Below are positions 22,246 to 58,887 of a stretch of 64,000 nucleotides of DNA, piece after piece. Positions within the stretch are counted from its first letter, which is position 1; each line of letters begins with the position of its first letter. The notes under the pieces are model-generated. The model was not told where the DNA came from, searched no databases, and saw only the letters and a list, made by a program, of their open reading frames with translations. Position numbers and translations under genes: made by a program. The DNA is taken from positions 293,161,647-293,225,646 of the forward strand of contig NC_134455.1 in NCBI RefSeq assembly GCF_047948215.1, in the 5' to 3' direction. The stretch comes from Lycorma delicatula (taxonomy: Eukaryota > Arthropoda > Insecta > Hemiptera > Fulgoridae).

Positions 22246-25200
22246 TTATAAGCCCCATTTCAGTGATTGAAACCAGCTACTACTAACTGGAATTTGGTTA
22301 TTATTTGGGTTGTTTGCATTCTGGTTATTATTGTTGTTGCTCTGGTTCTGATTATTCTTGTTGTTGTTGGCTTGATTCTGATTGTTTTGGTTGTTATTGT
22401 TGTTGTAGAGAGCGTTTTGGTTATTACTGTTCTGAATTTGATTGACCTGGTTGTTATTATTGTCCTGGTTCTGGTTATTGTAATTGTTGTTGTTCTGATT
22501 TTGGTTATTGTAATTGTTGCTGTTCTGGTTTTGGTTATTGAAGTTGTTATTATTTACATTGTGGCCATACTGGTTATGGTTATTGAAGTTATTATTTTGG
22601 TTGCTCTGATTTTGATTGTACTGATTATTATTCTGGTTGTTGTTATAGTGTGAGTTCTGATTGTTGTACGAGTTTTGGTTGTTGTAGTTATTCTTGTTTT
22701 GGTTATTATTGTTCTGGTTGTGATACTGGTTGTTGTTATTGTAGTTATTCTGATTTTGGTTATTATTGTTGTAGTTGTTGTTCTGGTTCTGGTATTGGTT
22801 GTTGTTATTGTAGTTATTCTGATTTTGGTTATTGTTGTTGTAATTGTTGTTCTGGTTCTGGTATTGGTTATTGTTGTTCTGGTTCTGGTATTGGTTGTTG
22901 TTATTGTAATTGTTTTGATTATTGTTGTTCACATTTTGTCCATACTGGTTTTGATTATTGTTTTGGTTGTTGTAGTTCTGATTGTTGTAGTTTTGGTTGT
23001 TGTTATTGTAGTTATTCTGGTTTTGGTTATTGTTGTTGTAATTGGTGTTCTGGTTTTGATTATTGTTTTGGTTGTTGTTATTGTAGGAGTTTTGATTGCT
23101 ATTGTAGTTATTATTCTGGTTGCTGTTAGCATTCTGGCCATATTGGTTCTGATTATTGTTGTTGTTGTTACCGTATTGATTGTTATTGTTGTAGTTATTC
23201 TGGTTTTGGTTGTTGAAGTTGTTGACATTCTGGCCATTTTGGTTCTGGTTATTATATTGATTGTTGTTGTTGTTGTTACCATACTGGTTATTTTGATTGT
23301 TGTTCTGGTTATTGTAAGAATTGTTATTGTTGTATTGGTTCTGATTGTTGTAGTCGTTCTGATTGTGGTTATTGTAGTTGTTATTATTGTTGTATTGGTT
23401 GTTTTGATTATTTTGGTTGTTGTTATTTATATTCTGATTATTCTGGTTCTGGTTGTTGTTGTAGTTGTTTCCATTGTTGTAATTATTATTGTATTGGCTT
23501 TGACTATAATTGTTGTTCTGGTTCTGTTGGCCGTTCTGGTTGTTGTTGTTGTTGTATTGATTGTTACCGTTATAGTTATTATTTTGGTTATTGTTGTTGT
23601 AATTGTTATTATTATTCTGGTTATTGAACTGGTTGTTGTTATAGTAATTCAAATGTTGGTTCTGGTTGTTATTATTATACTGGTCATTGTTCTGATTGTT
23701 ATTTTGGTTATTTCCAAACACGTTACCTGAAAACATAGAAACATTATTTTTCATCTGTATTTTAAAAACATTTTTGGCAGTAAATTCTGAACTGCAATAC
23801 CGCTATCCTTAATCTGTCTACGCTATACCGCAGTTTTGCAATACCTAAGTGTTTGTCTCTAACAATTAGAATTAACGAACACTATCAATACATTTAAATC
23901 ATTGAAACTATCTTCTTGCTTTTATTTTTCATGAAATAATCTGAAAAACCTGTGGTTATTCTACATATTCGATCGTTAGTAATCCTGCGCTATATTTCCG
24001 TACTTTTTTTAAATTAAATTGCTTTAGATCATCTTTTGTAATAACTACAGTATCACATTTATTAAAAATATATAGTTAATTAGATCTGTAAATGAAACTC
24101 TTACTAAAAATTCGATTTTTTCATGGGAAACAGGACTTGAAGTTTATAATTAAATGTTTTCCACTCACTCGCACCCTGTATTACAATTTTTTATGCTAGT
24201 ACATTAAAAATCGATAAAAATAATATTCCAACAATAAAAATAATGGTAGTCTGTACATTGTTTTAACATAAATCATTATTACTGTGTGCAAATATTCACT
24301 ATTCTGTTCATATATTAATATAAGTTTCGTAGAAAAATAAAAAAAATAATTTTTTTCTTTTAAATATTTTTAGAAAATAATTTCTTTTATGTTTTTAGAA
24401 AATAAACGTTTTTACGCATGAATACTGGTGCAGATATATTAGATAAAATACACAAATTTTTATATTTATTATTATTAGTCTTTCTTTTTTCTGTTTAGCC
24501 TCCGGGAATTACCGTTCAGGTATTACTTTAGAGAATGAATGAGGAGGGTATGTATGAGTGTAAATGAAGTGTACTCTCAGTTAGACCATTCCTAAGATGT
24601 GTGGTTAATTGAAAACCCAACCACCAAAGAACACTGATATCAACGATCTAGTATTCAAATCCGAATAAAAGTAACTGCCTTTACAAGAATTTGAACGCCG
24701 GAACTCTCGACTTCCAAATCAGCTGATTTGGGAAGACACGTTCACCACTAGACCAACCCGATGGGTATTATTATTATTATTATTACATATTATTAACATG
24801 TATATACGGATATTCAGAGTGATCGAAGAGGAAAAAGGTATAATTATTTGAGAACTGATTCTAGAGTTTGAAGTAAGGAAAAGAGTCTATACAAAGATAT
24901 GTCCGAAAACACTTTGTTGATGATTTGTAGCCAGCGAAAAATCACGCCCAGATTACAGTTCCCTCAGTGATATCAGGTCATAATGAAATTTTTAAGATGT
25001 TAGATCCATCGTAAAACAGAAAAATTGGGTGACGAAAAACACGTTTTTTTTAGTTTTGAATTACAATAATTCTGTTATCTCGAAAATTACTAATAAATGT
25101 GTAAAATTTTATTACAAAAACTTGTAGATAATTTAATTCTGAGAAATTTAATAAAGTCTATGAAAAAAAAAACAATTAACTTTTATTAAAAAGATAACAG

Positions 25201-27704
25201 ACAAATGTTATAAATTTGTAAAAATTAAAAACAGCTGCAATTATTTTAATAAATAAAGATTTTTGTAAAATTAAAATATATTTAATTTACTTTAAAACAA
25301 AATGTAGTAATACACATAATTTCGATTGTTTAATGCTTTTTGAGAATCAAGTTATGTTTTTGTATTTGTTGTACTCTAAAACTGTACCATATTTTTCCAA
25401 TTGAATCTGAAGCCAAAAAAGTGAAATTTTGTTTTGAATTATTTTTTATGAAAAATGCCGCGTTTCTTCACTCGTGAAGAATATGCTGATTTAATTTACA
25501 GTATGATTTTGCAATGAAAGCACATCATCTGCGGTGGAAGAATTCCACGTTGGTATCCTAGACGAGTAGTTCCAAACCATAAAGTACTTTGTCGAATTTT
25601 GAATAATCTTCCTAAGAATGGTAAACTTCCGAGTGCTCATTTTCATTTGAATGTGAACCGTTACATGGTGATGAAAGAGAAAACATCTTTCAGGTGTAGC
25701 AGCTTAGTCCTACTATGAGCACGGGAAGAATTTCTACATGATTCAACATTCCAGAAAGCACCGTTTGGTCTTTAACTTTGGTCTTCAAGGTCATAACTTC
25801 AAGTTTGATGATCTTGCTAGATGACTGCAGTTTTGTCAAGGGTTAACAATAATTATAACTTAGTCGTTAAGTTTTGTTCTGTTACGTTTCTAATAATAAA
25901 AGTTGATTTCTTTTTGTTTTTTTATAAAATTTATTTCATCAATTTTCTCAGAATTCAATTATCTATTAGTTTTAATAGTAATATTTAAGCATTTATTAGA
26001 CTTTTAACAAAACTATTTATTTCAAACCTAAAAAAACGTGTTTTTTCGACACCGAATTTTATGTTTTACGTTTGATATCTTAAAACCTTCGGAAAATACA
26101 ATTCTGAGATATGTTTTATTCAATTTTTTTTTCAAAAACATAAGACACCACCAAATTTATTCCTTACATAACACCTTAAAAATGTTAACATGACCTCATT
26201 TCACTGATGGAATTGAAGTCCGGACAAAATTTTTCGCTTGTTGTAACTCGATAGTAAAGCGTTTTCAGACAAATGATTATATGTACTTTTTTCCTTACCT
26301 CAAGTTCTAGAATCAGTTTCAAATTATTTCCCTTTCCTTCTTATATATGTATATATATTACACTCTGGATATTTACTACAGGAGTATTAGTTAAGGAATT
26401 ACAAATAACCACATTACATGTATACAGGTACATAGAATATTATTCTATTTTCAGTACATAAATAATTAAGGATTTTTATCTGTTTAAACGTTTTTACGTC
26501 TTCTAAGATTTCATCTATATTATAAATCTTGAACATTACCTTTTATAATGAGGAAAATACAAAATTATTATTTTTGAAATAAGCAATATCAATTACTATT
26601 GTAAATTTCATTATCTTATTAACTGCATAAGAATAAATAACTATTATTTATTGATCTTGTTATAACAATAATAATAAAAAAATATTATGCATGTTTCATT
26701 TTGCTCTACAAGAAATCATAAATATTTTAAAACTTGCAAAGCTATGCTTATTACACGTACAATCATTAAAATAATAAGATCTGATTTACCTGACCAAAAT
26801 TTATTAAAAAAAAAAAAAAAAAAACTTATATTTCTGTTATTGAAATCTAGGTATTTTAAAGTACCCTTTTTTTGTAAGAATAATTTTTTTCACGAATAAA
26901 GTTTTTCATGAAAGTTAAGCGTAATGAACATTGCGTGAAATTAAAACACTGGGAATGTTTTGATTCACATTCACAAAAAGATTGACAGAACTTCTGTAAT
27001 TTAATTAAAACTAGAAAAATCTTTTTTACAAACAAGAGCGTATTTTACCTTTCAAAACTACTAAAAAAAGTGTACATTACTTATAATAATTGAAAATTGT
27101 AAACAATCTTAATAATTATTATTAAATTATCTTCTGCCTTCGGATTTATTATTGTTGTTGCTGTTATTGTTATTATTATTATTATTTTTTTATTGTTATT
27201 TAATAATCATAAAATATATGAAAATAATTTTATATTTGATCATCAATCAATGACCAATATATTGGAACATACATTTTGATATTATTATTATTATTATTTT
27301 GTTATTAACGAGTAATCAAAATATTTTAGCATGATGTTACCTAAATATTTTCAATTTAATATTTAAATTTTTAAATGAGTGTATAAATTTAAAATACGAA
27401 AAATCATGTACCCACCATTTTGGTTGTGGTTGTTGTTTACATTCTGTCCATTCTGGTTGTTGTTTTGATTCTGAAACTGGTTGTTGTTATTCTGGTTATT
27501 TCCATTTTGATTATTGTTGTATTGGCTGTTGTTGTTGAAGTATTGGTTGTTGTTCTGGTTTTGTTGTTGTTCTTCACTTACTGGAGAAACTTCATTCTGG
27601 TTGTTGAAGAAACCGCTGAAGCACTGTCGTTTGGATTGTCCATAAGGATGGACGGCGGCAGCAGCGAAGCCAACGAGAACCAACAATACCAATGAGGACT
27701 TCAT
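22246..27704 (-). CDS. Gene A: secreted Asn/Gln-rich prion-like protein, 589 aa
   Basis: Coding exons are 27704-27416 and 23726-22246; the intron is 3689 bp. The donor is AATG^GTGGGT and the acceptor is TGTTTTCAG^GTAAC; phases (1 then 2 nt) rejoin a Gly codon, so the in-frame ATG just before exon 2 is intronic. Residues 1-17 are a signal peptide (MKSSLVLLVLVGFAAAA). VHPYGQSKR follows and ends in a dibasic site before QCFSGFF, which holds the only cysteine. From about residue 45 to 565 the chain is nearly all Asn and Gln with regular Tyr and almost no charge. Recurrent (Y/N)GQNV and QYQNQN units are visible. The C-terminus is PVSSSWFQSLKWGL. Asn/Gln codons are mixed AAC/AAT and CAA/CAG, so this is a maintained reading frame and not one pure triplet tract. 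No function is established. A secreted structural coat, glue, sheath or silk-like material is inference from composition. Confidence 0.87.
24481..24767 (-). mobile_element. SINE family 1 in the gene A intron
   Basis: Reverse-complement copy of the SINE at 9312, full length, with the tRNA-like head at the right end (ccactagaccaaccc) and the ggaggctaaac tail at the left. It is absent from the matching position in copy B (near 56010), so it inserted after the duplication. Confidence 0.85.
24825..26340 (+). mobile_element. Long-TIR DNA transposon relic with DUF4817-like transposase start
   Basis: The ends are imperfect inverted repeats of some 250-300 bases. For example, aactgattctagagtttga at 24852 mirrors the stretch at 26300-26320. 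Between them, from the ATG at 25455, a broken frame reads MPRFFTREEYADLIY, then PRRVVPNHKVLCRILNNL. This is the N-terminal helical domain seen in many insect transposase-like proteins of the mariner superfamily (DUF4817 style). Later frames are stopped and the catalytic half is missing. It lies in intron 1 of gene A and at the matching site in gene B. Domain naming is from memory of the family. Confidence 0.7.
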
Positions 27705-27710
27705 GTTGAA

Positions 27711-27744
27711 GGCGACGGTATAATAACCGTCGCCGTCTTATATA
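27711..27744 (-). promoter_or_regulatory. Gene A promoter: TATA box and GC-rich inverted repeat
   Basis: On the minus strand TATATAA occupies 27744-27738, 40 bases before the ATG. Between them ggcgacggt (27711-27719) and accgtcgcc (27726-27734) form a perfect 9-bp inverted repeat with a 6-base loop. With normal TATA spacing, transcription would start around 27713, inside this repeat, leaving a leader of only about 10 bases. Confidence 0.7.
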
Positions 27745-27759
27745 CTTTACTGTTATCAT

Positions 27760-30700
27760 CCCTACTCGATATCAATAACTAAGGTTGTAGGTCATCCGAT
27801 GTTGATAGTTAAACATAATTTTCAAAAATAAAATAGAATAAAAAAAAGTTTACGCATTTTTTTTAAATGATGTAATTTTTTTGTAAATTTATTTTTTACT
27901 ATCTATGGAATAATTTCCTTTACTAAAAAAAAAAAAATGTTAAAATACTCTGAGTAAACAATCTATAATAATCCTTAATCTTTGTTAAATAAAACTAAAA
28001 AAAAAAAAAAATAGTATTAAAACGCCTTTTTGTATCTATTTTTACTTATATATTTTTTTTAAATGCTCAAATTACAATTTTTTGTTCTTAACATTTATTA
28101 CTTTTTCAAAAAAACTTTAATAATGGTTTTCATCTAATTTATATATTTAAAAATTTTGTACAAATGGTACATTTAGTGAAAAAAATATTCACCTTTGTTT
28201 TAAAAAATAAACCTATTTATTACTTAAATATTTTCTTTTGCTAAAAAATTCAACTCATTTTGATAATTATTCCATCACTGTTAATTTATAAACTAGTCTT
28301 CTAGTTTAATATATTAGAATAATAGTCTCTTCAGTACAAGTTTGTTTTTTTTTTTTGCTCTTAATTGTTGTATTCTTAATTTTTGCATAATTATTGATTA
28401 GGCTTACAACCGTTTTTATTTTTAATCACTGTTATAACCGAATCTGTTTTTTGAAAATGTTGGCTTTTGGGCAAATTTGACCTTTAGGTGATATTCCGTG
28501 TATTTGTTTCTTGCAATTTGACTACAAAGTGGTATAGGTTTGGATTGTTTTTATTGACAAATATCACGGGAAATTTCCATGTAGTCTTTTGTACGTAATA
28601 TTCTACGATATTTACTGAAATTAAACTGATGTAAGCTCCTAAAGGGGGTCATTTAAATTCTATTTTTTATTTATTTTACTTTTGAGAGTATTGTAGTATT
28701 ATCGAATTATACTCTTACGCAACTTAATCAAATTTATAGAAAGAAAGGTGTGTTTTTTTTGAGAAAACAGAGTTTTGTTGTTTTATATTTTTTTTAGAAT
28801 TTATATAACATACTATATTTTGTATTTATTTTAGTCATGATTACTGACTTAAACATCTAGAAAATTATTCAAATAACTAATACTGCGCTATTCAAAATCT
28901 TCAGAATTTTTAACAATCTCTAATAATGCTGTAGCCGAAGATCCTACGCGATAAACGACCACTTACTCCCGTCAGTTATCGGTATTCGAGTTTCATATGA
29001 ACAAATACTCTCGAATTTGTTTGATACTTTATAGAAATATCCGGTTATCATGATTGCGACATATTTTCAAATATTTGTTACACCTTCATAAATGCTCCTT
29101 TCCTTGATAAAATTGAAAATTATTTTCAGTAAATGTTTGGGTTTTATTTTTAAATCCAAGTTTCATACTATTTTTCTTAAAATATTTGAACCTACGGTAA
29201 AATAGATAATATTTACAAAAACTTAATTTTATGATGGATTAGATAAACATAAAAAAATTGGAAAAATATTTAAAACATAAGTATTAAGATGAGTTGCTTT
29301 TACTAATACAAATACATATTTTTATCTTCATATCAAAAAGCTATATTTTCCGATAAGATTTTGTTTTTGAATTATTATCTAAATTTTCTGTTTTTACATT
29401 TATTTGCAGAGCCGATCACCTAAAACTAAGGAATCATGAATTCGATCTGAGTGATTCCTTATTATTAAGTTTGTAGAATTTGAGAAAATGTTTCTTAAAT
29501 ACATTGATTCTTCACAGAAATCTTATTTCACAGAAAATTTATCTTACTTTAAAAATAAATAAATAAAACCTATATATGAAAAATAAATGTTATATACAAT
29601 CTCCTTTTTTCTAATTAGAATTTGAAATCATCCATAGACGGTTAGATGATGTCAGTTACTTCCAGTTTGCGTTCTGTGAAATAGTCTAAATTAAAAAAAT
29701 AAATTTGAATGTCTTCATTGTTTACTTTTATATATTTCCTTGATAATATTTTTGTTACAAAATATAAGTGTTGTATGTTGATGGAACATTAACTTCGCTG
29801 AAAACTATTCAATGCTATTTCTGATTGATTATTTCCTGATTTTGAAAAAGAGGAGTTTCACGTTTCGGTCCTTACTTATGTTTATTTATGAATGTATTAG
29901 TCTTACCTTATTCCAAATCCCTAGTTGAACTATACAATTACGTTCACACAACTAATTAACTTTATTTCGGATCTGAAATCACCTCCAATTCAAACGTTAG
30001 TAAGCTACTGGTCCTTTTTTCGTTTACTTTGTCGTTGACATAAAGAGAAAATTTAAGTAAAAAGAAATTAAAGGATAACATAACTTGAATTTGGGCATTT
30101 CGTTAGTGTAAGGAATATTTCACATTATATATATTTACTCTTTGGATACAATGGACCAATTAAGAATACTTTCTGTTTTTGTGTATTTATATTCGGCGTT
30201 TTAAATTGTTAAAATAATGGATAAAACATCTATATCAACGTTGTAAAAGATATAAAAAAATATTTGGTAGAGAAGCAAAATAAAAATCCACAAAGTAAAT
30301 CTTTTTTGGTCAGAGGAGGATCATGTCGTAATTGTTTTTTTTTCATAATTAAAAAATAAATAAATAATATGTAATTATTAATGATATTTGAGAAAACGGT
30401 AAATTATCTTCTTCATCATCTAAAAGAAAAATATTAAATATTTAAGTGGAAGATTTATGCTAATTTATTTTTACAATAATATTACTCAAAGATAGAATAA
30501 AACTGAAAAACAAAATCTAATTATTATATTTATCATGAGATAACATATGAAAAACAAATTAATAATAACCGTTATAATTAAAGTGAATTAGTCTGATGCA
30601 ACAAAACCTATAATGCTTGTAAAACTAGTGCTTGTCTTTCTTTCTGAAAACTAGATAAAATAAATATTCAAAGATTTAAATACAGCTTAAATTTAAATTT

Positions 30701-31020: not shown

Positions 31021-31028
31021 TTATTAAA

Positions 31029-31320
31029 CCCACCGGGATTGTTCAGTGGTGAACTCTTCATTGTAAATCAGCTTATTTTGAGTCCATAGTTCTAAGATTC
31101 AAATCCTAGTAATAAAGGCAGTTACTTTTATACGGATTTGAATACTAGATCGTGGTTACCGGTGTTCTTTGGTGGTTGCGTTTCAATTAACCACATATCT
31201 CAGGAATGGTCAACCTGAGTCTGTACAAGACTACACTTCATCTACATTCATGCATATCATCCTCATTAATCCTTTGAAGTAATACCGTACGGTGGTTCCA
31301 GAGGCTAAACAGGAAAGATA
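31029..31320 (+). mobile_element. SINE family 1, upstream flank of gene A
   Basis: Diverged copy of the 9312 family (cccaccgg head, ggtgttctttggtggttg body, gaggctaaac tail). Target duplications of cttattaaa flank it at 31020-31028 and 31324-31332. Copy B is empty at this site (near 62615). Confidence 0.8.
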
Positions 31321-33060: not shown

Positions 33061-33061
33061 T

Positions 33062-41599: not shown

Positions 41600-44500
41600 G
41601 CAATTAAGTATAGCACAAACCCGTGGGTGTCAAAGCAGGGAGGCCCAGGAGTTCCACAGCTTCAATACCACCACCCATCTGTGTAAATACAGACGAACGA
41701 CAGCTCCACGAAAGGCTTATTTCACCCCTTGCATCCTTCACCTTCCTATACAGCAAAGCTGTACAGCAAAGCTGTATAGGAAGGTGAAGGATACACAAAT
41801 CTGAACACCGCGGAGAATTTATCACTGTCTGTTAGCATTACAACAATGACATTGCCTACGTCTATCTGACCAGTAATCACCATACACATCTTCTTTCTCT
41901 TTCCCATCTAACGCATTGGAAAAATACATGTTCAGCTGTGTCTCTCTGACCAAAATATTGGCACTCCGGATTAACCTTGTGTCTTCTGAACAGGTAGGCT
42001 CGGAATGAGCCGTGGCCAGTCAGGAATTGGATGACCCAATAAATCAGCTCACCAAATCCCCTCCCAATCCATGGCCCGATCTCACCTATTAAACGCCGGC
42101 TCCATTCGCCTTTACGGGAGGTGGCCCCCCTTGTTCTGCCACTCTTCTCTTAACTCACGGTGTGCGTCTTCTTTATTCATCCCTTCATCAATTTTTACCC
42201 GATCTCGAGCCATCTGCTGTATTGGTAACACTCCAGTAATTACAAAAAATGCTTCAGTTGACACCGACGAATAGGCACATGCTATTCATAACGCTATTTT
42301 TCTTTGTGCTCCCTCTAAGTACCTCCTATTCCTGTCACTTCTCAGAGCCCTGTGCCACACTGTCACACCGTATAGCAATATAGAGTTCACCACATGTGAG
42401 TACAATTTCCTAATTGAGGCCCGCGGTCCAGTAGTTTTTCTTAATTGTTTATTTAGACTTTGTACCACTTGTTCACCTTTAGTACGAACCTTCTGTACAT
42501 GAAAAGTCTAGCCACATTCCCAAATATTTTGTATTTCTGACGTACTGGACCTGGCCTTCCTCAGTCACAATCGGAATATGCCTTATAATTCGTCTTCCCG
42601 TCATAGAGATCGCCACCGTTTTATCGTGCGAAAGCCGAAATCCTCTAGTTCTCATCCATCTATTCACCATATTTAGTGCCTCAATGCTACTCTCGCTACG
42701 TCTTCCTCCTTCTTTGCAGTGACCATTAGCGCAAGGTCATCAGCAAAAGCTATTTTTTGCACTCCTTCTGGGTATTCTAAGCGCAAAATCTCATCGAACG
42801 TAAAATTCCATGAATTGGGTCTCAAAACTGAGCCTTGAGGCACCCCACTTGACACTTTGAATTCAATCTCACTACTGCTTATTTGGTATACCAAAAATCT
42901 TTCTTGTAAGAATCACTGTATCATTCGTCTGAGATATAGCGGTATATTGACTTTCTTCATCACTTCAAATATTGCTTCCCACCTCAGGGAATTAAAAGCA
43001 TTGTATACAGCCACAAAGATGACTACAGAAATTCGGCGCGTGCGCCACGTGTTCTTTGCCGCGTTATCAACCAATTTCATCACCTCCTTCACAGCATTCG
43101 TCTGATTTCCCTGATCGAAATCCAAATTGCCACTAGCTAATACACCACTTTCTCCAATATAGGCCTACAACCTTGCCTCTAACATCCTTTCTAATAATTC
43201 AAAAAAATTATTTGTAACACAAATTGGTCTATATGAAATTGTAGCTCCCAATCTACCTGGTTTGTTTAAAACTAGTCTTGATCTTTTCCATGAAGTCGGT
43301 ATAAAATCGCCTTTTAGCATATTGTTCATTACTTCCAACATTGTAACTTCTTCCACCAGTATCTGGACGACTTCTACCGGAATGCCGTCCGGACCCTGAC
43401 TCTTATGCAGCTTCATTTTCTTCCCTGCAGTCTTTAATTCCTGCATAGTGAAAACCGGTATACATCGGCCGCTATTTACTCTCTACATTGATCTACTTGC
43501 TTCGGAAACAGTATATCTACATATTCACGTACCTTGTCTTCTGGTGTCACTGGCAATCGTCTACCTAGTCTTCCGGAAACCAACTGGTATCCTCTTCCCC
43601 AAGGGTCTCTATCGATATTTTTGCAAAGGTCGTTACAACACTTGCTTTTGGTTTTTTTTGATGGCTGCTCTATATTTGGATCTAGCCTCCACTTACTCTT
43701 GTTTGGCCTTATCCTTGCGAAGTTTACACCCACATCTATTAACTCTTTGTAGTTTCATTCTAACTGCCCAAGCTCTATTACGTAAGACCTCTAGCTCAGG
43801 TCCCCACCAATACTTATGTCTTTTTTCGGGCACTTGTACCAGGACTCCCACTTTGTCACATTCTATAGTAACAATTTCTGTCAGTTCTTCAGGGTCTGTT
43901 ACTTCAGCCACTTTTTCACTAATCACCTCTGAAAAACGAACACACCCGCTTCTCGAGGTGGTAGTTCTACCAGGCTTAACCATTCTTGGTGTCGTTGTTA
44001 CCTCATTCGCTATTATGTAATGGTCAGACAGATTCTGTTCATCCAATATTCTCCAATTAATTAGAGGAGTTACATGATCTTCAGAGATGAAAGTCAAGTC
44101 AATTGCCGAGCTGGCTTCTCCGCGACTAAAAGTAGGTTCATCATTGTTCATACAAATCAACCTTAGAGCATTGATTTTTTCCGCTAAATGTTGTCCCTTC
44201 AAGTTTCGCACAGTTACCGTAAACTCTTGGATACTTAGCGTTAAAGTTGCCAGCCAAAATTATCTTTCTGTCTCTGAACCTTACAATCGCATGCCCTAAT
44301 TCATCAAGGAGAGCCACAAAACTGACAACTCTCGCATTTGGGGAATGGTACACAGCGAAAATCACAGTATTCCCCGAGTCTGTTCAGACATAACCTTCTC
44401 CAGCTCCACATATTCCTACCGGAGTCCCTACTGTAGGAAAGCCAATTGCCACTGTCAAATTCTCGTTTCTTATCCATTTCGGCCTAAAAGTCACTGATGA

Positions 44501-44689: not shown

Positions 44690-46020
44690 TCTTATGGTCC
44701 GGTTTCCCACAGTTGAAGCACAACTGACGTCTATCTACTCCTTTGCAATCCGCTGAGACATGGCCCGAAGCCCAACAACGATAGCATCTGCCTCAGGTAC
44801 TCGGATATAGGCACGACAATGTACCCAGCCTATCCGTATTCGAGCCTCTGTTAACTTCCTTGCTGCGCGATATATCGTGACCACTATTGCATTCTTGGTT
44901 TCACCAAAAGCAGATCTTATCGACGAAATCTTAAACTCATCTGCACCTCCGATTTCCTGAGCTATTGTGTCCTTAATTTCTTTTTCACTGGTTTCACTGT
45001 CAATATCTCGTAGATGTACAATTGTTGTACGTCCGCCTCTGGTCCTCATATCGGCCTGTAACTCTGCCGACTTAGCTCGTAATGCAATAGTAAGTGCGTC
45101 AGCCTTCTCTTTCCACTTAACTCGTATGCATAATTCTTCATTATCCCCTTTCCTAAGGGACAACACTTCTCCAACTTTTTCCCGAGTAACATTTTGTTTC
45201 ATAGTCCTTAAGAGATCTGCATAGGACCGCCCTCTGCTTTGATTATTATAGTTCAACTGTCTTGTACAGGTGGAGTAGCACGTTTGATCCACGGACTTTT
45301 GATTTCCTGATTTACAACTTTTGACTTTGGAATCAAAACTCTCACTTGGGTTTCTCTACTCTTTGTTAAATATATTAGTACTTTTTTAATGAGGTCGCCA
45401 AGTCTGCCTCCTGGTAGCATAAAAGTCGCTGCCTTAGTGGTTTCTAGTATTTTCTTCATGGCTTTTAATAATTTCAATACTACATTTTCCTCTCCTTTAA
45501 CTGTATCATAATAAACAGTATATCTACTGGCTGGATTTGTAGCTTGCTCATGTCCTGTGATAACTGTATCATTTTTGACAATGTCTCCAGAAACCACTCC
45601 CGTGACACCACGAACAGGGTGATCTCTTCGCCCGGATTGACCCGTTAGGTCATAAAAACTAATTATGTCTCAATCATCGGGTATTTCCTCGAATTGAGAA
45701 ACTCTTGAAACTATTTCCGCTGGCTATTTTCTAACGGATAACATAACAAGTCTTCATCAGATAAGTCTGCGTCCAACTGTTCCCTTATCCCAAGCTCGCG
45801 AGACCCCAGTTTGTTTCGCCACGTACTCGTTGTCCTTTAAACCCTTTGTATATTCTACAAAGCTGCTTTTCAGGTGTTATATATTTCCACAAACCTGTTC
45901 CTAAATTTTGTTTTAAATTAAACACTAGAAGTCCTAACTGAGTACTAAGTTCATCCATTGTCCCGACAACAGATTCCTCCTCTTCCGATAACATCTGTCT
46001 GCACCTCTTTTTGCCTTTAG
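44690..46020 (-). pseudogene. LINE ORF1 (gag-like) with two CCHC zinc knuckles, broken
   Basis: Minus-strand pieces at 46020-45785, 45597-45253 and 45292-44735 form a gag-like chain. It starts with an acidic coiled segment (SEEEESVVGTMDELSTQL). The middle contains SYADLLRTMKQ and a regular fold before the knuckles. After a frame shift near 44790 it reads CYRCWASGHVSADC and CFNCGKPDHKSAQC, both perfect CX2CX4HX4C motifs, with a third degenerate one. The role in such elements is RNA binding and particle formation. The frame breaks make it non-functional. Confidence 0.8.
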
Positions 46021-46885
46021 CATACTTAATAATAATAATAGCAACTAGAATGGTCAACATAACAAACAGAACCAGTTTAAGAATAATAATCAGAATCAGC
46101 ATCAAACTGAATATCAGAAACAACAACCAAACCAGAATGACAAAATGTGAACAACCTCTGCAATTACAACATGAACTACAACAACAATCAGAACAACAAA
46201 ATCCAACAGAAAAACCAGAAAAGTAAAAATAACCAGAACCGGAATTGACAGAATGTCAACAGCTCTTACAATAACCACAAACAGAACAAAAGAAATCTGA
46301 ACTGCAAATTAAAAATAGGAATAATGAAAATGGTTCGATATAAATAGCAACAACAACCACAATCAGTATGTAAATAACAACAACAATAATCAAAACATTC
46401 AATTCAATAATGGTAACCCAAATCAACAGCAGATTAAAACAGCAGACAATCAGAATCAGAGCCACAATAACATCAATAATAACAAGTACAATCAAAACCC
46501 AAATTAACAAAATGTGAACTTCTATTTGAACAACAATCAAAGCAACAGTAATCTAAATCAGAACAATAAAAACTTAAACAGAACAAAAAATCAGAACAAA
46601 AAAAATCACTTCAACAACCAAAATCACAACTTCAACAATAATAACCAAAATAACAATAACAACATCAGAAAGAACAAAATGTAAATTACAACAATCCAAA
46701 CCAATATAATAACAATAACAACCCAAAAAATCAATACAATAATCAGAACCAATTAGGCCAGAATATAAACAACAATCAAAATAACCAAAACAAGCAGTAC
46801 AATAACTACAGTAATCAGAACTTGAATAACAATAACAATCATAACAGTAATCAGTTGAATAATAACAATAACCACAATCAAAATC
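46020..46885 (+). pseudogene. Decayed N/Q-rich exon relic, plus strand
   Basis: Asn/Gln codons dominate in shifting frames on the plus strand. The best run (about 46680-46890) reads EQNVNYNN, then QYNNNNN, QLGQNINNN and NHNQNQ, resembling the GQNV units of genes A and B. Stops and indels break it, and lysine and threonine codons have crept in. It is opposite in orientation to the intact genes. The LINE at 41466-46020 abuts its left end, where the first exon would lie. No C-terminal cap motif is visible. Confidence 0.72.
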
Positions 46886-46889
46886 AGGT

Positions 46890-47840
46890 TAAAATTTTCA
46901 AGTTTTTAATCAAAAAATTTATGACTCGTGCTAAACGTAAGGTAAACCTCAAAATAAAACTTAAATATAACCGTAAATTACACTTTTAATTGGAAAAAGG
47001 AACGAATTCTTCAGATGAATAAAAAAATTTTCTATCAAATACTGCTTTATACTTTAAATTTATTTATTTAATTTTACAAGTGTAATTATCCCAGTTAAGA
47101 GAGAAGAATTGAAAAATATCTATGACATTTATCGTAGTGAATTTTCTTCAAACTTACGTTCTACTTAAGAAAAGTTTCATGTGTACGCAAACATTAAGAT
47201 TTTTTGTACTTTTGAAAAAATTAAAAGTGTAAAATTTTGAACTTTCTCGCACAAAAATAATATTACACAAATTTCCTCTCATCGTTTTTATTTTATTTTT
47301 AGGAGAAATGTATAACAACATTTTGTTTGTAGTTAAAATAGTTAGTTAATTTGTTTGTTTACCATAAATTAGTTTTATTTCTTCTTAAATTTTATTATAT
47401 AAACATAGAAAATTATTTTTGAATAATTTTCAGTATAAAATAATTTCTAATGAAAATACCTAACTTCTTTTATTAATATTTGCCTGTTATATTCACCTTA
47501 GAAAATCTTCATACGAATAAAAATTTTGAATCAAAATTTATTAATAAAATTAATAAATTCTTCACAAATTAGCTGTAACTGTCAACAAGGGTAATGATCT
47601 TTATTAAGTAGTTAGGCATAATTGCAATGTAGATTGTAAAAAATCTGGATAAAAAATGTATAAATAATGTTTGCTTAAAACGTTATATTATTAAGGAAAA
47701 GTTTATAAAAAACCATTTTAAATTTATTTTGTGTATTGTTTAAGAAAGATGTTAGACATCACAAAAAAAACTGAAATCTATTATTATAACTTCTTTGAAA
47801 GTTATTTCATACTAAAATGGAATACTATGTTTATATAGCC
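46890..47840. other. AT-rich spacer between two N/Q relics
   Basis: I see no gene or named element in these 950 bases. Confidence 0.45.
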
Positions 47841-47844
47841 CATT

Positions 47845-48376
47845 CTAATGACTAAATCCAGCTACTGCTTACGGAGTTTGGCAATTATTTTGGTTATTAA
47901 CATTCTGGTTGTTATTGTTATTGCTTTGGTTCTAATTGTTGTTTGCTTGATTCTGATTGTTTCGGTTGTTATTGATGTTCAATTTCGTTGTTGTTCTGAT
48001 TGGTTGACCTGATTATTGATATTGTTCTGGTTCTGGTACTGGTTGTTCTTCTGGTTTTGAATGTACCGATTATTGTTCTGGTTATTTTTATTGTATAAGT
48101 TTTGGTTATTGTTATTCTGGCTCTGATACTGGTTGTTGTTATTGTAGTTGTTCTGCTTGTGATTGTTGTTGTTTACGTTCTGGCCATACTGGTTTTGGTT
48201 GTTGTAATTGTTGTTCTGGTTCAGGTACTGGTTGTTTTTATTGTAGCTGTTTTGGTTATTATTCGGTTATTATTATTTGTTGTTCACGTTCTGGCTATTG
48301 TAGTTGTTATTGTTGTGCTGGCAACTTTGGCTATTCTGGTTGTTATTATTTACTTTTTGGTTGTTGATGTTGTTCT
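47845..48376 (-). pseudogene. Decayed N/Q-rich exon relic with C-terminal cap, minus strand
   Basis: On the minus strand this reads broken N/Q sequence including QNQYGQNVNNNN. Near 47870-47845 it ends in VSSSWI, a stop, then SLEWAI, a mutated form of the VSSSWFQSLKWGL tail of genes A and B. At least three in-frame stops and frameshifts are present. Exon 1 is missing; a microsatellite and a LINE fragment lie where the intron should be. The same-orientation upstream flank resumes at 50330. Confidence 0.85.
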
Positions 48377-48454
48377 AAAACCTAAAATATCATAAATATT
48401 ATATTATTTTATTAATTACAGATATATATATATATATATTTATAAAATAATTTT

Positions 48455-48457
<3 letters not shown>

Positions 48458-48516: not shown

Positions 48517-48639
48517 AGGGGTGTGTGAGAAAAGTAATGAGATTGGTAACACTTTGAGCGATCTGGCAACGCTGTTTGATTTGGGTGATCAGGAAAAGGT
48601 GTCTGCGAGGCCATAATGTTGTATGCTGCGCCCGTCTAG

Positions 48640-50205
48640 GCTCATCGTTTACAATTCCAATGCTATAGGGACATTTTATTGCAAGCCCAGCGTCTTCTAT
48701 TGTTAGCAATTGTCGGAGGCTACAGAACTGTCTCGATATCAGTCTTGAGGCAGTCTCTGTGATCGCCAGCATAAAACCCATGGACAATCTTGCTACGGAA
48801 CGTAGTAGGTGGTATATTTCTAAGAAGGAAGGCCTTCTTACTTTTGAGCGTATGCAAGAGATTGAAGACCAAGGTTTAGACGCTTGGCAAGTTAGGTGGC
48901 AAGTTAGATTCTTCCACTGGTCGATACAAGCATGGTATATTTCCAAAGCTGCGAGTTCTTAGGAGTTGCGAGCAATTAGGTGCCCCCAATCGGTACAAAA
49001 TTTAATTCCTTCCGGGACATGGTGCATTTAGGTATAGTTTGGCTAGGCTTGGTTTGACTGATTTGGGCTTGTGCCCGGACTGTTGAGTCGATTACACTGC
49101 GGACCATGTCCTTTATGTTTGTCCCCGGTACGAGGCTAAACATACCAGAGTCAACTAGTACGTTTAGAACTCGCACAGAATGGACTATAGTGGCTGGCTT
49201 CCTTCGATTCCTCGCACTGAGCTGAACGACTGAGGGGTATAAGTAGAGTAGCGCCCCGGGTGTCTAGAGACCGCCTGGACAGTTGATTGGCCGGAGGTAA
49301 GCGTGTTGGTATCGAGCCACGGTTAGTCAGAATAAGTAAGGTGATCATTATTATAATGTCTTCTGTCGGCGGGACAACGAATGCACTGCCGAGGGTATGG
49401 GTAACCATGCAGCCGTGAGGTGTAGCGTTGTTTTGACGAGATCAATTAATTTGATTGAGGAAGCATCGCTGTCAGCGGGATGGTGAGTGCACTGCCGAGG
49501 GCAAGGATTTCATGCAGCCGTGAGGTGTAGCACCATCTCGACGATGGAAGTTTAAGTGAAAGTAAATGTCACGTGGGACTTTGTCATGGAGCTGAGTGGG
49601 AATAGAACATCTGTTCGCCTCCCCTGGTAGACTACACCGGAGTCCATAATTGAAACCAATTCAGGGGTATGAACTATAAGTTGCGTTCACTAAGGGAACT
49701 ATTTATAAATTTAGTTGTTGCGAACAAAGTTTCTGGTGGTACGTTATTTATTAAACTGCCTCGAATTAATGAGACATTTACACACAAATTGACTCTTTAA
49801 AGTTTAGAACTAGGCAAGGGGTTTATGCTTTCGTGAGCTCGGTTAGTTAGTTCAGTGGGCAACGAAGTAGGACAGTCAGGATTGTCCGAAAGAAACCTAC
49901 AGCGAAGGCGAAGGCTGAGTCATTATCTCACTGATGCAAATGTTTACCTAGGCATTTACATCGGTGGCATCCCAATGAGGGCTGGCTTATTACTGTGAGA
50001 TGTAAAAAGTTAGAGGGCAAAAGACGACTCCCGTTAAAGTCCATCAGGGCTAGGATCAGGGGGGTGGTGGTGTGGCGACCGGAATCGTCACACGGCGGGG
50101 TCTTCCTCTACGGGGGTTGGGATGTTTATTGGTCTCCAGAAAGATCATTCTTTTACGACGAAGGTAGTTTTGATAACAATTTTCTGGTCATTTGGTGATC
50201 TGGGC
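48640..50205 (+). mobile_element. 5'-truncated LINE 3' end (third R1-like relic)
   Basis: Plus-strand broken frames match the ORF2 C-terminus of the other LINEs: AQRLLLLAIVGGYRTVS near 48695-48745, then a segment ending FERMQEIEDQGLDAWQ (48759-48962). GLCPDC, a stop, then VDYTADHVLYVCPRY follows near 49065-49135. The last is the Cys-His block (CPxC, H, C). A long 3' untranslated region follows. It holds a two-unit, 106-base tandem repeat around gcactgccgaggg (49383 and 49489). The end near 50205 is approximate. Confidence 0.7.
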
Positions 50206-50960: not shown

Positions 50961-50969
50961 TAATTAGTT

Positions 50970-52329: not shown

Positions 52330-52384
<55 letters not shown>

Positions 52385-52421
52385 TTATATATAATAATTT
52401 TTTAATAATTTAATAATTTTT

Positions 52422-52453
<32 letters not shown>

Positions 52454-52745: not shown

Positions 52746-52787
<42 letters not shown>

Positions 52788-53400
52788 GTATACAGTAAAC
52801 TGATGATACACTAAATTTGTTTTTTTTTTAATAATTTTTCTGGAGTTACTCGACAATTTCTGAATTTTTTTAATTTAATTAAATATTTGTTATCATATTT
52901 GCGAAGACTAAATATTGAAAGAATTGAAAGCAATGAAGTAATCCAACTCGGTTGAATAATGGATGAAATAATGACAGTTTTCGAATAAAATGTTTTAAAT
53001 ATTTATCTAGAACTATCAAATACTAAAATCAAATTAGGAAAAATAATCATAGTTTCCTAATTGTTTTGAAGTTGTCATACATGGCATCTTTTAGTTGTGA
53101 GAAGCATGTTAAATGATTCAGTTACTGTATAATTAAGCTCTAGCTCAGGAAGGGATAATAAGGGATGTAGTTATATCATAACAAGGGATATATTACATTT
53201 TCTTATGATCGTTGAATAGTAATAATTCACAAATTAATATTAAAAATTTTAAATAATTTATTTATAATCCATTTTTTTCTTAATTCTTAAATCCTGAAAA
53301 AAATACTTTTCTGCATGTACCAAAGTATAAAAATGTTACATTATGCAAACTATAGGTATCGAAAGAAAAATCTCTTTTCCTAACTACTACGTAAATATAA
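50970..53400. other. AT-rich stretch with long (TA)n tracts
   Basis: I find no supported exon. (TA)n tracts lie at about 50828-50848 just before this stretch, and at 52339-52378, 52424-52453 and 52746-52786 within it. Confidence 0.5.
52735..52804. repeat. 70-bp (TA)n hairpin with unique 11-bp arms
   Basis: atcagtttact (52735-52745) is exactly complementary to agtaaactgat (52794-52804), with a self-complementary (TA)n core between them. Confidence 0.85.
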
Positions 53401-53735
53401 CTTAATTATAAACATTAATTACATCAATGTTTCTAACAAGGTCTGGATTGTAATTTATATACAAAAAATAATTTTACATAAAAGAAACTAAACTGATAAA
53501 AAAGCATATTTTGTTTTCTTGGATAAAATATTGATTAATTAAGAATACATTAATGCTTAATGGTTTGGCTTAATGCTTAATGGTAAGGCTTAATGGTGTG
53601 AAATTTATGTTATTGAAAGAAAATTTTAATAAATTAAAAAAGCTTAAATTAAGTTCTCTATAAGTGAATTATTAATGAAGGTGAATAAGGAATTCGAAAA
53701 ATCAATACAAATAAAAATTATATATATTAAAATAC

Positions 53736-53745
53736 TTTATTTATT
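53736..53745 (-). promoter_or_regulatory. Poly(A) signal of gene B
   Basis: Overlapping AATAAA motifs on the minus strand about 60 bases past the stop codon, the same layout as at gene A. Confidence 0.7.
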
Positions 53746-53801
53746 CAACTAAACAAAGTAAATAAATCATGTTACATTTAATAAATAAAAACAAATTGCA
53801 T

Positions 53802-56800
53802 TTATAAGACCCATTTCAATGATTGAAACCAGCTACTGCTAACTGGATTTTGGTTATTATTTGGGTTGTTTGCATTCTGGTTGTTATAGTTGTTGCTCTG
53901 GTTCTGATTACTTTGGTTGTTGTTGGCTTGATTCTGATTGTCTTGGTTGTCATTGTTGTTGTAGTTCTGAATTTGGTTGTTCTGGTAATTGTTATTATTC
54001 TGGTTCTGGTTGTAATTGTTATTGTTCTGGTTTTGGTTATCGTAATTGTTATTGTTCTGGTTTTGGTTATTGTAATTGTTGTTGTTCTGGTTTTGGTTAT
54101 TGTAATTGTTGTTGTTCTGGTTTTGGTTATTGTAATTGTTGTTCTGGTTATTATTTACATTTTGGCTGTACTGATTATTGTTGTTGAAGGTGTTTTGGTT
54201 GTTTTGATTTTGATTGTACTGATTATTATTCTGGTTGTTGTTATTGTATGAGTTTTGATTATTATTGTTGTTCTGGTTCTGGTACTGGTTGTTGTTATTG
54301 TAGTTGTTTTGATTATTCTGGTCATACTGGTTTTGGTTGTTGTAGTTCTGATTGTTGTAGTTTTGGTTGTTGTTGTTCTGGTTGTTGTAGTTTTGGTTGT
54401 TGTAGTTTTGGTTGTTATTATAGGAGTTTTGGTTGTAGTTATTTTGGTTTTGGTTATTATTGTTGTTCTGGTTCTGGTACTGGTTGTTGTTTTGATTATT
54501 GTTGTTATTGTTTACATTCTGGTCATACTGGTTTTGATTATTGTTTTGGTTGTTGTAGTTCTGATTGTTGTAGTTTTGGTTGTTGTTGTTCTGGTTGTTG
54601 TAGTTTTGGTGGTTATTATAGGAGTTTTGGTTGTAGTTATTCTGGTTCTGGTACTGGTTGTTGTTATTGTAGTTGTTTTGATTATTGTTGTTATTGTTTA
54701 CATTCTGGTCATATTGGTTTTGGTTGTTGTAGTTCTGATTGTTGTAGTTTTGGTTGTTGTTGTTCTGGTTGTTGTGGTTTTGGTAGTTGTTATTATTGTA
54801 TTTATTATTCTGGTTGTTGTTATTGTAGTTGTTGTTCGCATTCTGGCCATATTGGTTCTGATTATTGTTGTTGTTACTGTATTGATTGTTATTGTTGTAG
54901 TTATTCTGATTTTGGTTGTTGTTGTTTACATTCTGGCCGTTTTGGTTCTGGTGATTGTATTGATTGTTGTTGTTGTTGTAGTTGTTACTGTACTGGTTAT
55001 TTTGGTTGTTGTTCTGGTTATTGTAAGCATTATTATTGTTGTACTGGTTCTGGTTATTGTAGTTGTTGTTATTGTTATACTGGTTTTGACTATGATTGTT
55101 ATTCTGGTTCTGTTGTCCATTCTGGTTATTGTTGTTGTTGTACTGATTGTTTTGGTTGTGACCATTATAGTTGTTGTTATTTTGGTTATTGTTGTTCTGG
55201 TAGTTGTTATAGTAACTCACATTTTCGTTCTGGTTGTTATTGTTCTGATTATTATTTTGGTTATTTCCGAACACATTACCTGAAAACAAAGATATATTAT
55301 TTTTCATCTGTATTTAAAAAAAACATTTGGCAGCAAATTCTGAATTGCATACCGCTATCCTTAATCTGCCTAAGCTATACCGTAGTTTTGCAATACCTGT
55401 GTTTGTCACTAAAAATTAAGATTACTGAATCTTATCAAAACCCTTAAGTCATTAAAACTATCTTCCTGTTTTTATGTTTCATGAAATAGTCTGAGAAACC
55501 TGTAATTAGTCTAAATGTTTGATCGTTAGTGATCCTGCATTATATTTTCGTACATATTTATGTAGATTTCTTTAGATCATATTTCTTTAAGTACAGTATC
55601 ACGTTATTTATTTAAAATATATAGTTAATTAAATCTGTAAAATAAACTCTCACTAAAAATATTTTTTCATGGAAAATAGTACTTGATCTTTATAATTACA
55701 TGTTTTCCACTCACTCGCAGCCAGTATTACGATTTTTTCTGCTAAGAAATTAAAACGATAAAAATAATATTTCAGCCATAAAAATAATGCTAGTCTGTAT
55801 ATTACGTTAACATAAATGCGTATAGTGTTTGTAAATAATAGTCATTGTTCTGTTCATATATCAATAAATTCTTTAATTTTTTTTACATGAAGATAAGTTT
55901 CTTAGAAGAAATAGAAAATAATTTTCTTTTTTAAATACTTTTTTGTATTTCTTTTAGAAACACCTTTACGCATGAATCTACAGCAGATATGTTAGATCAA
56001 ATGTAAAAATAATAATAATAATAAAGGGAAATAATTTCAGAACTGATTCTAGAGCTTGAAATAAGGAATAACGTCCACACAAAACATTGTCCGAAAACGC
56101 TTTTGTATCGAGATGTAGCCGAAAATCTCGCCCGGATTTTAGTGCTCCCGGTGACATCGTACTGAAATTTTTAAGCCGTTAAGGACTTAAGGAGTTTCGT
56201 ATATTTTTTACCATAAAAATCGATTAATACAAGTCCCAGAACTGTATCTTCCATAATTTTTATGATATTCAACGTAAAAACAGAAACATTCGGTGACGAA
56301 AAGTACGTTTTTTAGGTTCCAATTCAATAACTTTGTTAAATTACTAATAAATGAGCAATATTTTATTATCAAAAGTTGTAGATAATCTAATTCTGAGAAG
56401 TGTAATAAAGTCTATGAAAAACAAAAAAATAATTAACTTTTATTATTAAAAAGTAAACTTTTATGAAAAAAATTTTAATGAATTTATAAAAATTAAAAAC
56501 AGCTGCAATTATTTTAATAAATTTAGATTTTTGAAAAATTAAAATATTTTTAATTGATTTTAAAAAAAATTGATATTGACATAATTTGGATTGTTTAATT
56601 ATTTTTAAGGATCAAGTTATATTTTTCTATTTGTTGTACTCTAAAACTGTACTACAATTTTCCAATTGAATTTGAATTTAAATTAAATCTGAATTGTTTG
56701 ATATAAAAAATTCCGCGTCTCTTCAATCATGCAGAATATGCTATTAGGATTTCTATGTACAATTGACCGTTAAATTGGCCACCTAGATCACCGAACCATA

Positions 56801-58887
56801 CTCCTTTATATTACCGTTTATGAGGATAGATGAAATGCAAGGTATACAAGTGAAAGTAGAAACACCTAATTAACTGAACGCTCACTTTCTCAATGCTGCG
56901 CTGTCCTTATCAAGGGACGCGAAAATATCGTTAGGCCGGTGACAAAAAATTTAAGAAAAAGAGTTGAAAAGGGCATCGATGTCAATAGTAGAATTTTCGA
57001 ACATTTTTTTGTAAATTAGTACAATACAAACCACTGTATCTTTTTTAATGAAAGTTAAAGATAATTTTAATTTTTAAAAGGTCTAAGTTATTATATTAAA
57101 AACAGTTGTGTTTTATTTTTGGAAATTTATAACATTTTTCTGTTTTGTTTTATTGTTAACGGCAGAAGTTGATTTCTTTCCGTTTCTTTATTTCACCAAT
57201 TTTCTCAGAATTGAATTATGTATTAGTTTTGATAGTAAAGTTTACGCATTTAACAGTTCTTTAGCAAATTTACTGTACTTCAAACCTAAAAAATAACGTG
57301 TTTTTCGTCACCGAATTTTTCTGTTTTACTTTGGATATCATAAAAACTACAGTACTCGTGCATAATTTATTTGATTTTTAGGTCAGCAAATACAAGAAAC
57401 CATCAAATTTATTACTTACGTAACGCCTTTAAAATTTCAACATGACTTCTTGTCAGCACTGGAACTGAAGTCCATGCGAAACTTTTCGCTAGCCGTAACT
57501 CGATATTAAAGCGTTTTTAGACATATTTTAGAAATTAATGTCTTATTTCAAATTATTGATGAGATAAATGATTTGTAGCGTGTGTGAAAATGCCATGGCT
57601 AACCGGGATTCGAATTCGGGATCTCCGGATGAAAGGCCGAGACTCTGCCGCTCGCGCCACGGAGGCCGGATTTCCTTCTCTATTACACTGCATAAATATT
57701 ACAGGAATATTTTTTAACGTATTATTACAAATAACCACATTACATATATACAGGAACGTGGAATATAATTTTATTTGTAACACAAATAATTAAATATTTC
57801 TATCGTAAACACCTTTTAAAATTTTCTAAAATTTCATTTATATAATAAATCTTCAACATTTCTTTATAAAGAAAATTTAAAAAAATATTATTTGTGAAAT
57901 ATTCAATAATCAATTATTATTGCAAATTTCATTATCTTATTAACCGCATAAGGTTGAATAAGTTATCTTATTTATTTATTTATTAAGCTTTTATAACAAT
58001 AATAATCATAAGTAAATCTTGCGCGTGAAATTAATCCATGAATAATATTTTATTTTGCATTACAAGAAATCAGAAATATTTAAAACATGCGAGCTATGCT
58101 TATTACTATCACTAAAATAATAAGACCTGATGTACCTGACCAAAATTTGTTAAAATAATATATACATTTCAGTATTTTAATCGAAACATTTTAAAGTATC
58201 TTCTTTTTTTGTTTTGTAAGAATAATTTTTTCCATGAAAGACCATTTTTAACTGTATAAGTTTAAGTGAGGGATGAAATTAACAAACTGGGTATTTTTTT
58301 ATTCGCATTTGGCAAAAGATTTACAAAACTTTTTGTAATTTAATTAAAACTAGAAAAATCATTTTACAAAAACAAGAACGCGTTTTACTTTTTAAAACAT
58401 AAAAAAAGTAGATTATATAGTAATTGAAAATTGTAAATAATAATAATAATAATAACTATTACTAATTAAAAATAATTTTATTTTTGGTATTGTATTTTGT
58501 TATTAATGGGTAATCAAAATATATTAACATAATATAACCTGCTTTAAATATTTTAAATTTATAATTTAATTTTAAGTCACGGTACGAATTCAAAATATAT
58601 GTAATTATGCACTCACCATTTTGGTCCTGGTTGTTGTTTTGATTCTGGAATTGGTTGTTGTTTTGGTTATTTTCATTTTGATTATTGTTGTATTGGTTGT
58701 TGTTGTTGTTATTATTGTTGTAGTATTGGTTGTTGTTCTGGTTTTGTTGTTGTTCTTCACTTATTGGAGAAACTTCATTCTGGTTGTTGAAAAAACCGCT
58801 GAAGCACTGTCGTTTGGATTGTCCATAAGGATGGACGGCGGCAGCAGCAAAGCCAACGAGAACCAACAATACCAATGAGGACTTCAT
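53802..58887 (-). CDS. Gene B: secreted Asn/Gln-rich prion-like protein, 582 aa
   Basis: Coding exons are 58887-58617 and 55279-53802; the intron is 3337 bp. The donor is AATG^GTGAGT and the acceptor TGTTTTCAG^GTAAT; lengths of 271 and 1478 nt rejoin in frame into 582 codons plus stop. The first 52 residues match gene A except Ile for Val at position 42: signal peptide, VHPYGQSKR, then QCFSGFF with the single cysteine. The large exon is Asn/Gln with spaced Tyr. It has three QYDQNV units and an internal near-duplicate block (QNYNNQ and QYQNQN runs) that gene A lacks or has fewer of. The C-terminus is PVSSSWFQSLKWVL, one residue different from gene A. Repeat number and order differ between A and B while both ends are preserved, which suggests selection on signal, cysteine and tail. 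Function is unknown; an extracellular structural or adhesive role is inference. Confidence 0.87.
56022..57555 (+). mobile_element. Long-TIR DNA transposon in gene B intron, internally deleted
   Basis: Same element and same intron position as 24825-26340. The transposase relic reads PRLFNHAEYA (near 56715) and within about 20 codons jumps to PLNWPPRSPNHTPLYYRL (near 56770-56825), a C-terminal catalytic-region motif. The middle of the gene is therefore deleted. Copy A instead keeps more of the N-terminus. The right end runs into a SINE at 57560. Confidence 0.7.
57560..57672 (-). mobile_element. tRNA-derived SINE, family 2 (short copy)
   Basis: On the minus strand it reads ccgtggcgcgagcggcagag, then a B-box-like attcgaatccc, then gccatggcattttcacac. 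It shares this head with the copy at 61600. It is absent from copy A at the equivalent site (about 26340). Confidence 0.75.

Follow-up and report, generated by a model that had tools for sequence, protein, structure and literature searches.

A duplicated pair of predicted two-exon genes for secreted-looking proteins rich in asparagine, glutamine and tyrosine in Lycorma delicatula

We have analysed a stretch of 64,000 bases from the fulgorid Lycorma delicatula (contig NC_134455.1, positions 293,161,647 to 293,225,646), here called the window, which has a G+C content of 30.3%. On its minus strand lie two neighbouring paralogues, genes A and B, each of two exons, and the predicted products are chains of 589 and 582 residues dominated by asparagine, glutamine and tyrosine. 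The sequence argues that the pair is real and under selection and that its protein is unusual, the splicing being predicted. We consider it on balance probable that A and B are intact duplicates coding for a secreted, disordered structural protein of the sticker-and-spacer type, which would condense and then set. The gene models, all on the minus strand, are as follows.

22246..23726, minus strand: gene A exon 2, the Asn/Gln/Tyr chain, the tail SSSWFQSLKWGL and the stop codon.
23727..27415, minus strand: gene A intron, 3689 nt, GTGGGT...TTTTCAG, phase 1.
27416..27704, minus strand: gene A exon 1, a signal-peptide-like start, VHPYGQSKR, the single Cys28 and the beginning of the Asn/Gln chain.
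53802..55279, minus strand: gene B exon 2, the Asn/Gln/Tyr chain, the tail SSSWFQSLKWVL and the stop codon.
55280..58616, minus strand: gene B intron, 3337 nt, GTGAGT...TTTTCAG, phase 1.
58617..58887, minus strand: gene B exon 1, the equivalent of gene A exon 1.

A preliminary description of this DNA had proposed in-frame joins from 27416 to 23726 in A and from 58617 to 55279 in B. These are borne out, with GT...AG borders, phase 1 and 589 and 582 codons that translate with no internal stop. The description had also called the products almost pure Asn and Gln over more than 500 residues. Asn and Gln make up 429 of the 589 residues of A (72.8%) and 430 of the 582 of B (73.9%), so that the figure of 500 stands as the length of the region and fails as a count. 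Within the core, which we define as residue 42 to the 17th residue from the end, Asn and Gln reach 79–80%, and 'almost pure' is a better fit once Tyr is included (88% in A and 90% in B). The remainder includes 17 Gly in A and nine in B, 23 and 20 Ser, and one Thr and four Pro in each protein. After residue 27 the charged residues are three Lys, no Arg, three Asp and three Glu in A and two Lys, no Arg, seven Asp and five Glu in B. Each protein has a computed mass of about 68 kDa and holds few N-x-S/T sequons, five in A and four in B.

The ends of the chains are distinct from the core. The start, MKSSLVLLVLVGFAAAA, is signal-peptide-like, with 13-residue Kyte–Doolittle means of 2.0–2.9 over the first seven windows and alanines, recognized by eye, before the presumed cut; the signal peptide that had been claimed is a putative one on the evidence of hydropathy and inspection. 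The single Cys that had been described is at position 28 in both proteins. Two Trp residues stand in the tail, SSSWFQSLKW[G/V]L, which is indeed common to A and B; the description of it as hydrophobic fits less well, the segment being short, mixed and not plainly so.

The order of residues in the core departs from chance. Runs of Gln do not exceed three in either protein, and beyond the first linker there is a single QQ pair in A and a single one in B, against means of 19.6 and 22.0 and minima of 8 and 11 in 2000 shuffles. Tyr residues likewise avoid each other. Pairs within three residues number one amongst the 46 Tyr of A (random mean 10.8) and three amongst the 53 of B (14.4); placing the Tyr at random, 10,000 times over, never gave so few for either protein. 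The composition is prion-like over long stretches: on a prion-propensity scale with a threshold of 0.05, the 41-residue windows that score above it make up 92% of the total in A and 94% in B. As far as sequence can go, the reading of a secreted-looking, selected and disordered chain, for which AlphaFold2 predicts no fold and which tends to self-associate, is supported.

Comparison of the two genes indicates that the pair codes on the minus strand and that the sense frame is under purifying selection. The DNA of A and B was aligned without regard to codons. All 19 gaps in the exons (16 in exon 2, three in exon 1) are multiples of three, whereas in the intron 51 of 67 are not. At the intron rate the chance of 19 in-frame gaps out of 19 is about 1.5e-12, a value that overstates the surprise, since repeat tracts favour in-frame slips; yet decayed copies of the same sequence, described below, do show frame changes. 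Substitutions in exon 2 number 95, 38 and 164 at the first, second and third sense codon positions, whereas intron changes are even over three positions (292, 287 and 273). The ratio of nonsynonymous to synonymous change (dN/dS, Nei–Gojobori) is 0.10 over the entire A/B protein alignment and likewise 0.10 for the codon-unaware alignment of exon 2, compared with 0.94 in the codon-matched antisense frame, which reads Val, Leu and Ile. It is these in-frame gaps, the excess of third-position changes and the low sense ratio that lead us to minus-strand coding. The gap-frame and codon-position tests rule out a non-coding relic. A young trinucleotide slippage or microsatellite tract is also ruled out, because the Asn codons are mixed (122 AAT and 197 AAC in gene A, 104 and 211 respectively in gene B) and adjacent ones match at the chance rate or slightly more often: the two members of an NN pair share a codon in 93 of 171 cases in A (54%, where 53% is expected) and, in B, in 103 of 170 (61%, where 56% is expected). 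Runs of identical codons are no longer than five in either gene.

The locus also holds damaged relatives of the pair, which the earlier account overlooked.

22013..22096, minus strand: partial copy of exon 2, 84 bp, identical to 23407..23490 of gene A exon 2.
About 46030..46890, plus strand: decayed paralogue D, an Asn/Gln mosaic across shifting frames with stops.
47833..48382, minus strand: decayed paralogue C, an Asn/Gln chain with stops and frame changes and a tail relic, VSSSWI*SLEWAI, at 47872..47834.

Paralogues C and D are both located between A and B, with D on the opposite strand. No relative of exon 1 was found for either amongst the best 30 tblastn rows in the window, and no tail is recognizable in D. 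The 84-bp copy lies about 150 bp beyond the stop codon of gene A. To its left and right the flanking DNA of the two genes can be aligned, and gene B therefore lacks the copy. Judged from these sequences, the locus is a small array that has undergone duplication, inversion and loss, in which C and D show the fate of such a sequence without selection while A and B stay intact. Just upstream of C, 48560..50160 has a G+C content of 46.8% between A+T-rich flanks (21–27% G+C) and TA/TG microsatellites; it may be an element that replaced the 5' part of C.

We envisage the following course for the product. The chain would enter the secretory pathway, with trimming possible at the dibasic KR26, which is followed by Gln, and could be kept in store as a highly concentrated condensate. 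In it the roughly 50 separated Tyr residues would serve as stickers, and the Asn/Gln runs, which carry almost no charge, as spacers. Once outside the cell the material would set to a gel, film or fibre through hydrogen bonds between Asn and Gln side chains, amyloid-like or otherwise, and tyrosine cross-linking might then fix it. Cys28 and the Trp/Phe tail could provide end-to-end or surface contacts. The product is likely to be used as a glue, as a sheath, as a layer of the eggshell, as silk or as a coating of the cuticle. Two live genes, two relics and a TATA-box design would fit strong expression in one gland.

Several points weigh against a selected, self-associating secreted chain. The dN/dS values are rough: synonymous sites are near saturation (proportion of synonymous differences, pS, 0.66), the raw ratio pN/pS is 0.23, and the placing of gaps within repeats is uncertain. 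The identity of A and B in exon 2, 1106 of 1403 positions (78.8%), is no higher than in the better intron windows, the overall intron figure of 2294 of 3146 (72.9%) being pulled down by two poorly aligned stretches. Identity is greatest at the 5' side, with 413 of 446 positions (92.6%) from −696 to −200, 176 of 197 from −200 to −1 and 249 of 259 nt (96.1%) in exon 1; for this block, at 89–96%, recent gene conversion or strong constraint could each be the cause. Beyond the stop codon, 89 of the first 100 bases are identical. The signal-peptide call is one of eye and hydropathy. The spacing tests recount related units, as A and B have internal repeats in common. When identical inter-Tyr segments are counted once, those of at most two residues are still rare (one of 39 in A and two of 40 in B, with 24% and 28% expected), but such a count itself trims short ones. 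Moreover, Tyr spacing is irregular: the spacings vary modestly less than in shuffled chains (of 2000 shuffles, 1.9% for A and 3.0% for B had so small a spread), and the longest stretches free of Tyr, 51 residues in A and 47 in B, slightly exceed the means of the shuffles (48 and 42). Finally, the AlphaFold2 model, in which no fold was found (mean pLDDT, the predicted local distance difference test, 37.4; 565 of 589 residues below 50; the ends alone higher), had two sequences only as its input.

The proteins might instead be a nitrogen-rich secreted reserve of the egg, the seminal fluid or a nuptial gift, which is digested and forms no material, with composition selected and patterning a by-product of repeats. 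With Asn and Gln at 73–74% of the chain, much amide nitrogen would be available, and there is neither a Pfam domain nor a predicted fold. Such a reserve has no need of separated Tyr or isolated Gln, however, and both genes retain Cys28 and the tail, of which a relic is seen even in paralogue C. We regard a reserve as unlikely.

It is similarly doubtful that only the ends are functional, the Asn/Gln chain being tolerated filler that expands through its repeats and changes by unequal exchange. The 24 length differences in the protein alignment of A and B, and the identical 84-bp copy adjoining gene A, are what such a process would leave. Against this are the sense dN/dS of about 0.1 inside exon 2, the preservation of 261 of 295 aligned Asn positions and 32 of 42 aligned Tyr positions, and the outcome of the tests of Tyr separation.

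A mucus-like lubricant or barrier of the gut, salivary system or surface, hydrated and never setting, would suit a chain that is very hydrophilic, carries almost no charge and is predicted to be unfolded. Mucins are defined by O-glycosylated repeats rich in Ser, Thr and Pro; membership of that class is ruled out, as each protein has a single Thr and four Pro, with 23 Ser in A and 20 in B. The sites for glycosylation are few (five and four sequons, one Thr each) and separated aromatic residues would be expected to favour association, which together make the proposal improbable.

Exon 2 could also be a separate single-exon gene for a non-secreted prion-like protein, starting at an ATG in the end of the intron, since both genes have such an ATG and an open frame (23754..22246 and 55307..53802). 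We think this very improbable: exon 1 of A and of B carries the same Asn/Gln chain, in phase, up to the GT donors, and if read unspliced would finish in dissimilar tails (113 and 141 residues in total). Antisense open reading frames (ORFs) of 351 and 342 residues are present, but as the mechanical reverse of Asn and Gln codons, with a dN/dS of 0.94, they are rejected, and we give almost no credence to a Val/Leu/Ile product.

The kind of protein that we propose is already known, as a secreted Asn/Gln-rich structural protein of the pharyngeal cuticle in Caenorhabditis elegans. The C. elegans APPG (ABU/PQN) proteins are Gln/Asn-rich, low-complexity, prion-like paralogues, most with signal sequences, and have been proposed to form amyloid in the extracellular cuticle (PMC4232772, PMC9629831); two that were tested seem to be localized in the pharyngeal cuticle, which takes an amyloid dye (PMC4232772). 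Proteins A and B resemble them as low-complexity, Gln/Asn-rich paralogues with a signal-peptide-like start. APPG proteins, however, contain at least 9% Cys and C_tripleX (CxxxCxxxC) repeats (PF02363), whereas A and B have one Cys each and no Pfam match, which rules out membership; in addition, over half of their residues are Asn, and their Tyr residues are separated.

The louse nit sheath proteins LNSP1 and LNSP2 are likewise a paralogue pair with predicted signal sequences, built of repeats, Gln-rich and described as unlike known proteins (PMC6328571). Proteins A and B are also paralogues with internal repeats, and may likewise start with a signal peptide. The louse proteins consist of Gln-Ala, Gly-Ala and polyGln domains and their sequenced genes are intronless (PMC6328571), in contrast to the Asn-led chains of A and B, with almost no QQ and a large intron. 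Composition and run lengths (Gln runs of at most three) show no such domains and exclude A and B from that family.

Three further systems share general features with the pair. In a glycine-rich protein of tick cement, spaced aromatic residues and Arg drive condensation, with ageing to a gel (PMC11794139). Proteins A and B are also secreted-looking, disordered chains with interspersed aromatics, but the tick protein is Gly-rich and Arg-driven, whereas A and B have 17 and nine Gly and lack Arg beyond residue 26. The egg glue protein of the silkworm, a secreted adhesive, is repetitive and hydrophilic, as A and B appear to be, but it is built of G-G-N/K/D-Q/E/K-Q/P pentapeptide repeats (PMC10143709), and those 17 and nine Gly are all that A and B hold. 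The brochosomes of leafhoppers are described as rich in Gly, Tyr and Pro, and the brochosomins, of 21–40 kDa, and other brochosome proteins are lineage-restricted secreted structural proteins (PMC10607721). The likeness lies in that general kind; composition and a mass of about 68 kDa rule out membership.

Searches for relatives returned none. Pfam gave no family for gene A exon 1, for full-length A or for full-length B; Connexin and Presenilin, below the cut-off for the unspliced reading of gene B exon 1, were taken as noise. Solved structures gave no match. A search of a large protein collection with residues 1–52 of A produced 16 candidates, none at an E value of 1 or less. This search covers predicted proteins that share five-residue words with the query and have 0.55–1.75 times its length, so that short or mis-predicted models would escape it. 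As a control, a cuticle-protein-like query returned 2567 proteins from 2570 candidates; those with names amongst the 120 matches listed come from many insects, the leafhoppers Homalodisca vitripennis and Macrosteles quadrilineatus being two of them. An ORF of 141 residues beside a relic of a long interspersed nuclear element (LINE), which has no clear domain and is a poor control, gave no match from 21 candidates. Because the first control shows the collection to be rich in insect proteins, the empty N-terminal search is informative, and the family therefore looks narrow, lineage-restricted or unannotated. Collections of viral and prokaryotic contigs, from which little is expected for an animal gene, gave 44 pattern matches and no relative for gene B exon 1 (viral_contigs) and 591 pattern matches and no relative for gene A exon 1 (genome_contigs). 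No such family appears in the open-licence literature amongst the matches listed. Together with the Pfam and N-terminal results, this supports the earlier statement that no described family has these features. Some Asn-rich insect proteins are presumably carried in databases as 'GATA zinc finger domain-containing protein 14-like'; a psyllid paper lists that name, with no further link.

Candidate promoter and 3' signals occupy equivalent positions in the two genes.

22184..22189, minus strand: gene A candidate poly(A) signal, AATAAA, 56 nt past the stop codon.
27711..27744, minus strand: gene A core promoter candidate, TATATAAG at 27744..27737 followed by an inverted repeat.
53740..53745, minus strand: gene B candidate poly(A) signal, AATAAA, 56 nt past the stop codon.
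58894..58927, minus strand: gene B promoter candidate, the same element, with the repeat at 58894..58917 and one arm position changed.

In both genes TATATAAG begins 40 nt 5' of the ATG, and a G+C-rich inverted repeat sits between this candidate TATA box and the start codon. In gene A (27734..27711) its 9-bp arms are perfect, GGCGACGGT-6-ACCGTCGCC. One other G+C-rich inverted repeat of that type occurs in the window (near 20279), and none was found in 20 first-order Markov windows. The repeat may be the site of a regulator or a hairpin of the 5' untranslated region.

Both introns contain a stretch of about 1.5 kb, 24842..26329 in A and 56088..57523 in B, with long imperfect inverted arms (in A 161 nt, 73% complementary). 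It looks like an old transposon with terminal inverted repeats and, being present in both introns, is older than the A/B duplication. A dispersed repeat of about 290 bp has three copies in the window (24479..24766, 9311..9606 and 31028..31316; 78–85% identity), with no copy matched in the gene B intron, and looks like a short interspersed nuclear element. A second short dispersed repeat, at 57572..57714 and 61564..61698 (76% identity), contains what looks by eye like a tRNA box; no tRNA was called by ARAGORN in the window, and Rfam gave no match. Relics of LINEs comprise an RVT_1 reverse transcriptase (16230..16598) and a PF14529 endonuclease (43693..44211), and perhaps further pieces at 15388..15756, 16734..17159, 44735..45292 and 60658..61050, with no Pfam match above the cut-off; the last has zinc-knuckle-like cysteines by eye. 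The two domains fit an animal source, and we take the relics to resemble arthropod elements.

A family of this sort could have escaped notice in proteomics, because trypsin is predicted to yield one peptide of 7–30 residues per protein, compared with about 35 for chymotrypsin; beyond residue 26 the chains lack Arg and have two Lys (B) or three (A), and would be easily missed. Low complexity would also make such materials easy to miss in masked sequence searches. We advance tentatively, at a little under an even chance, the broader idea that A and B represent unreported, lineage-restricted natural extracellular polymers in which selection keeps a sticker-and-spacer code of separated Tyr and single Gln in a matrix of Asn. 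In such a polymer a prion-like domain, secreted and poor in Cys, would in effect serve as bulk material. What decides between a liquid and a solid state has mostly been studied in intracellular prion-like domains. If our reading is true, L. delicatula would offer a natural, secreted and nearly uncharged polymer of Asn, Gln and Tyr for testing how the spacing of aromatic residues and the amide side chains decide whether the material is stored as a liquid or becomes a solid fibre.

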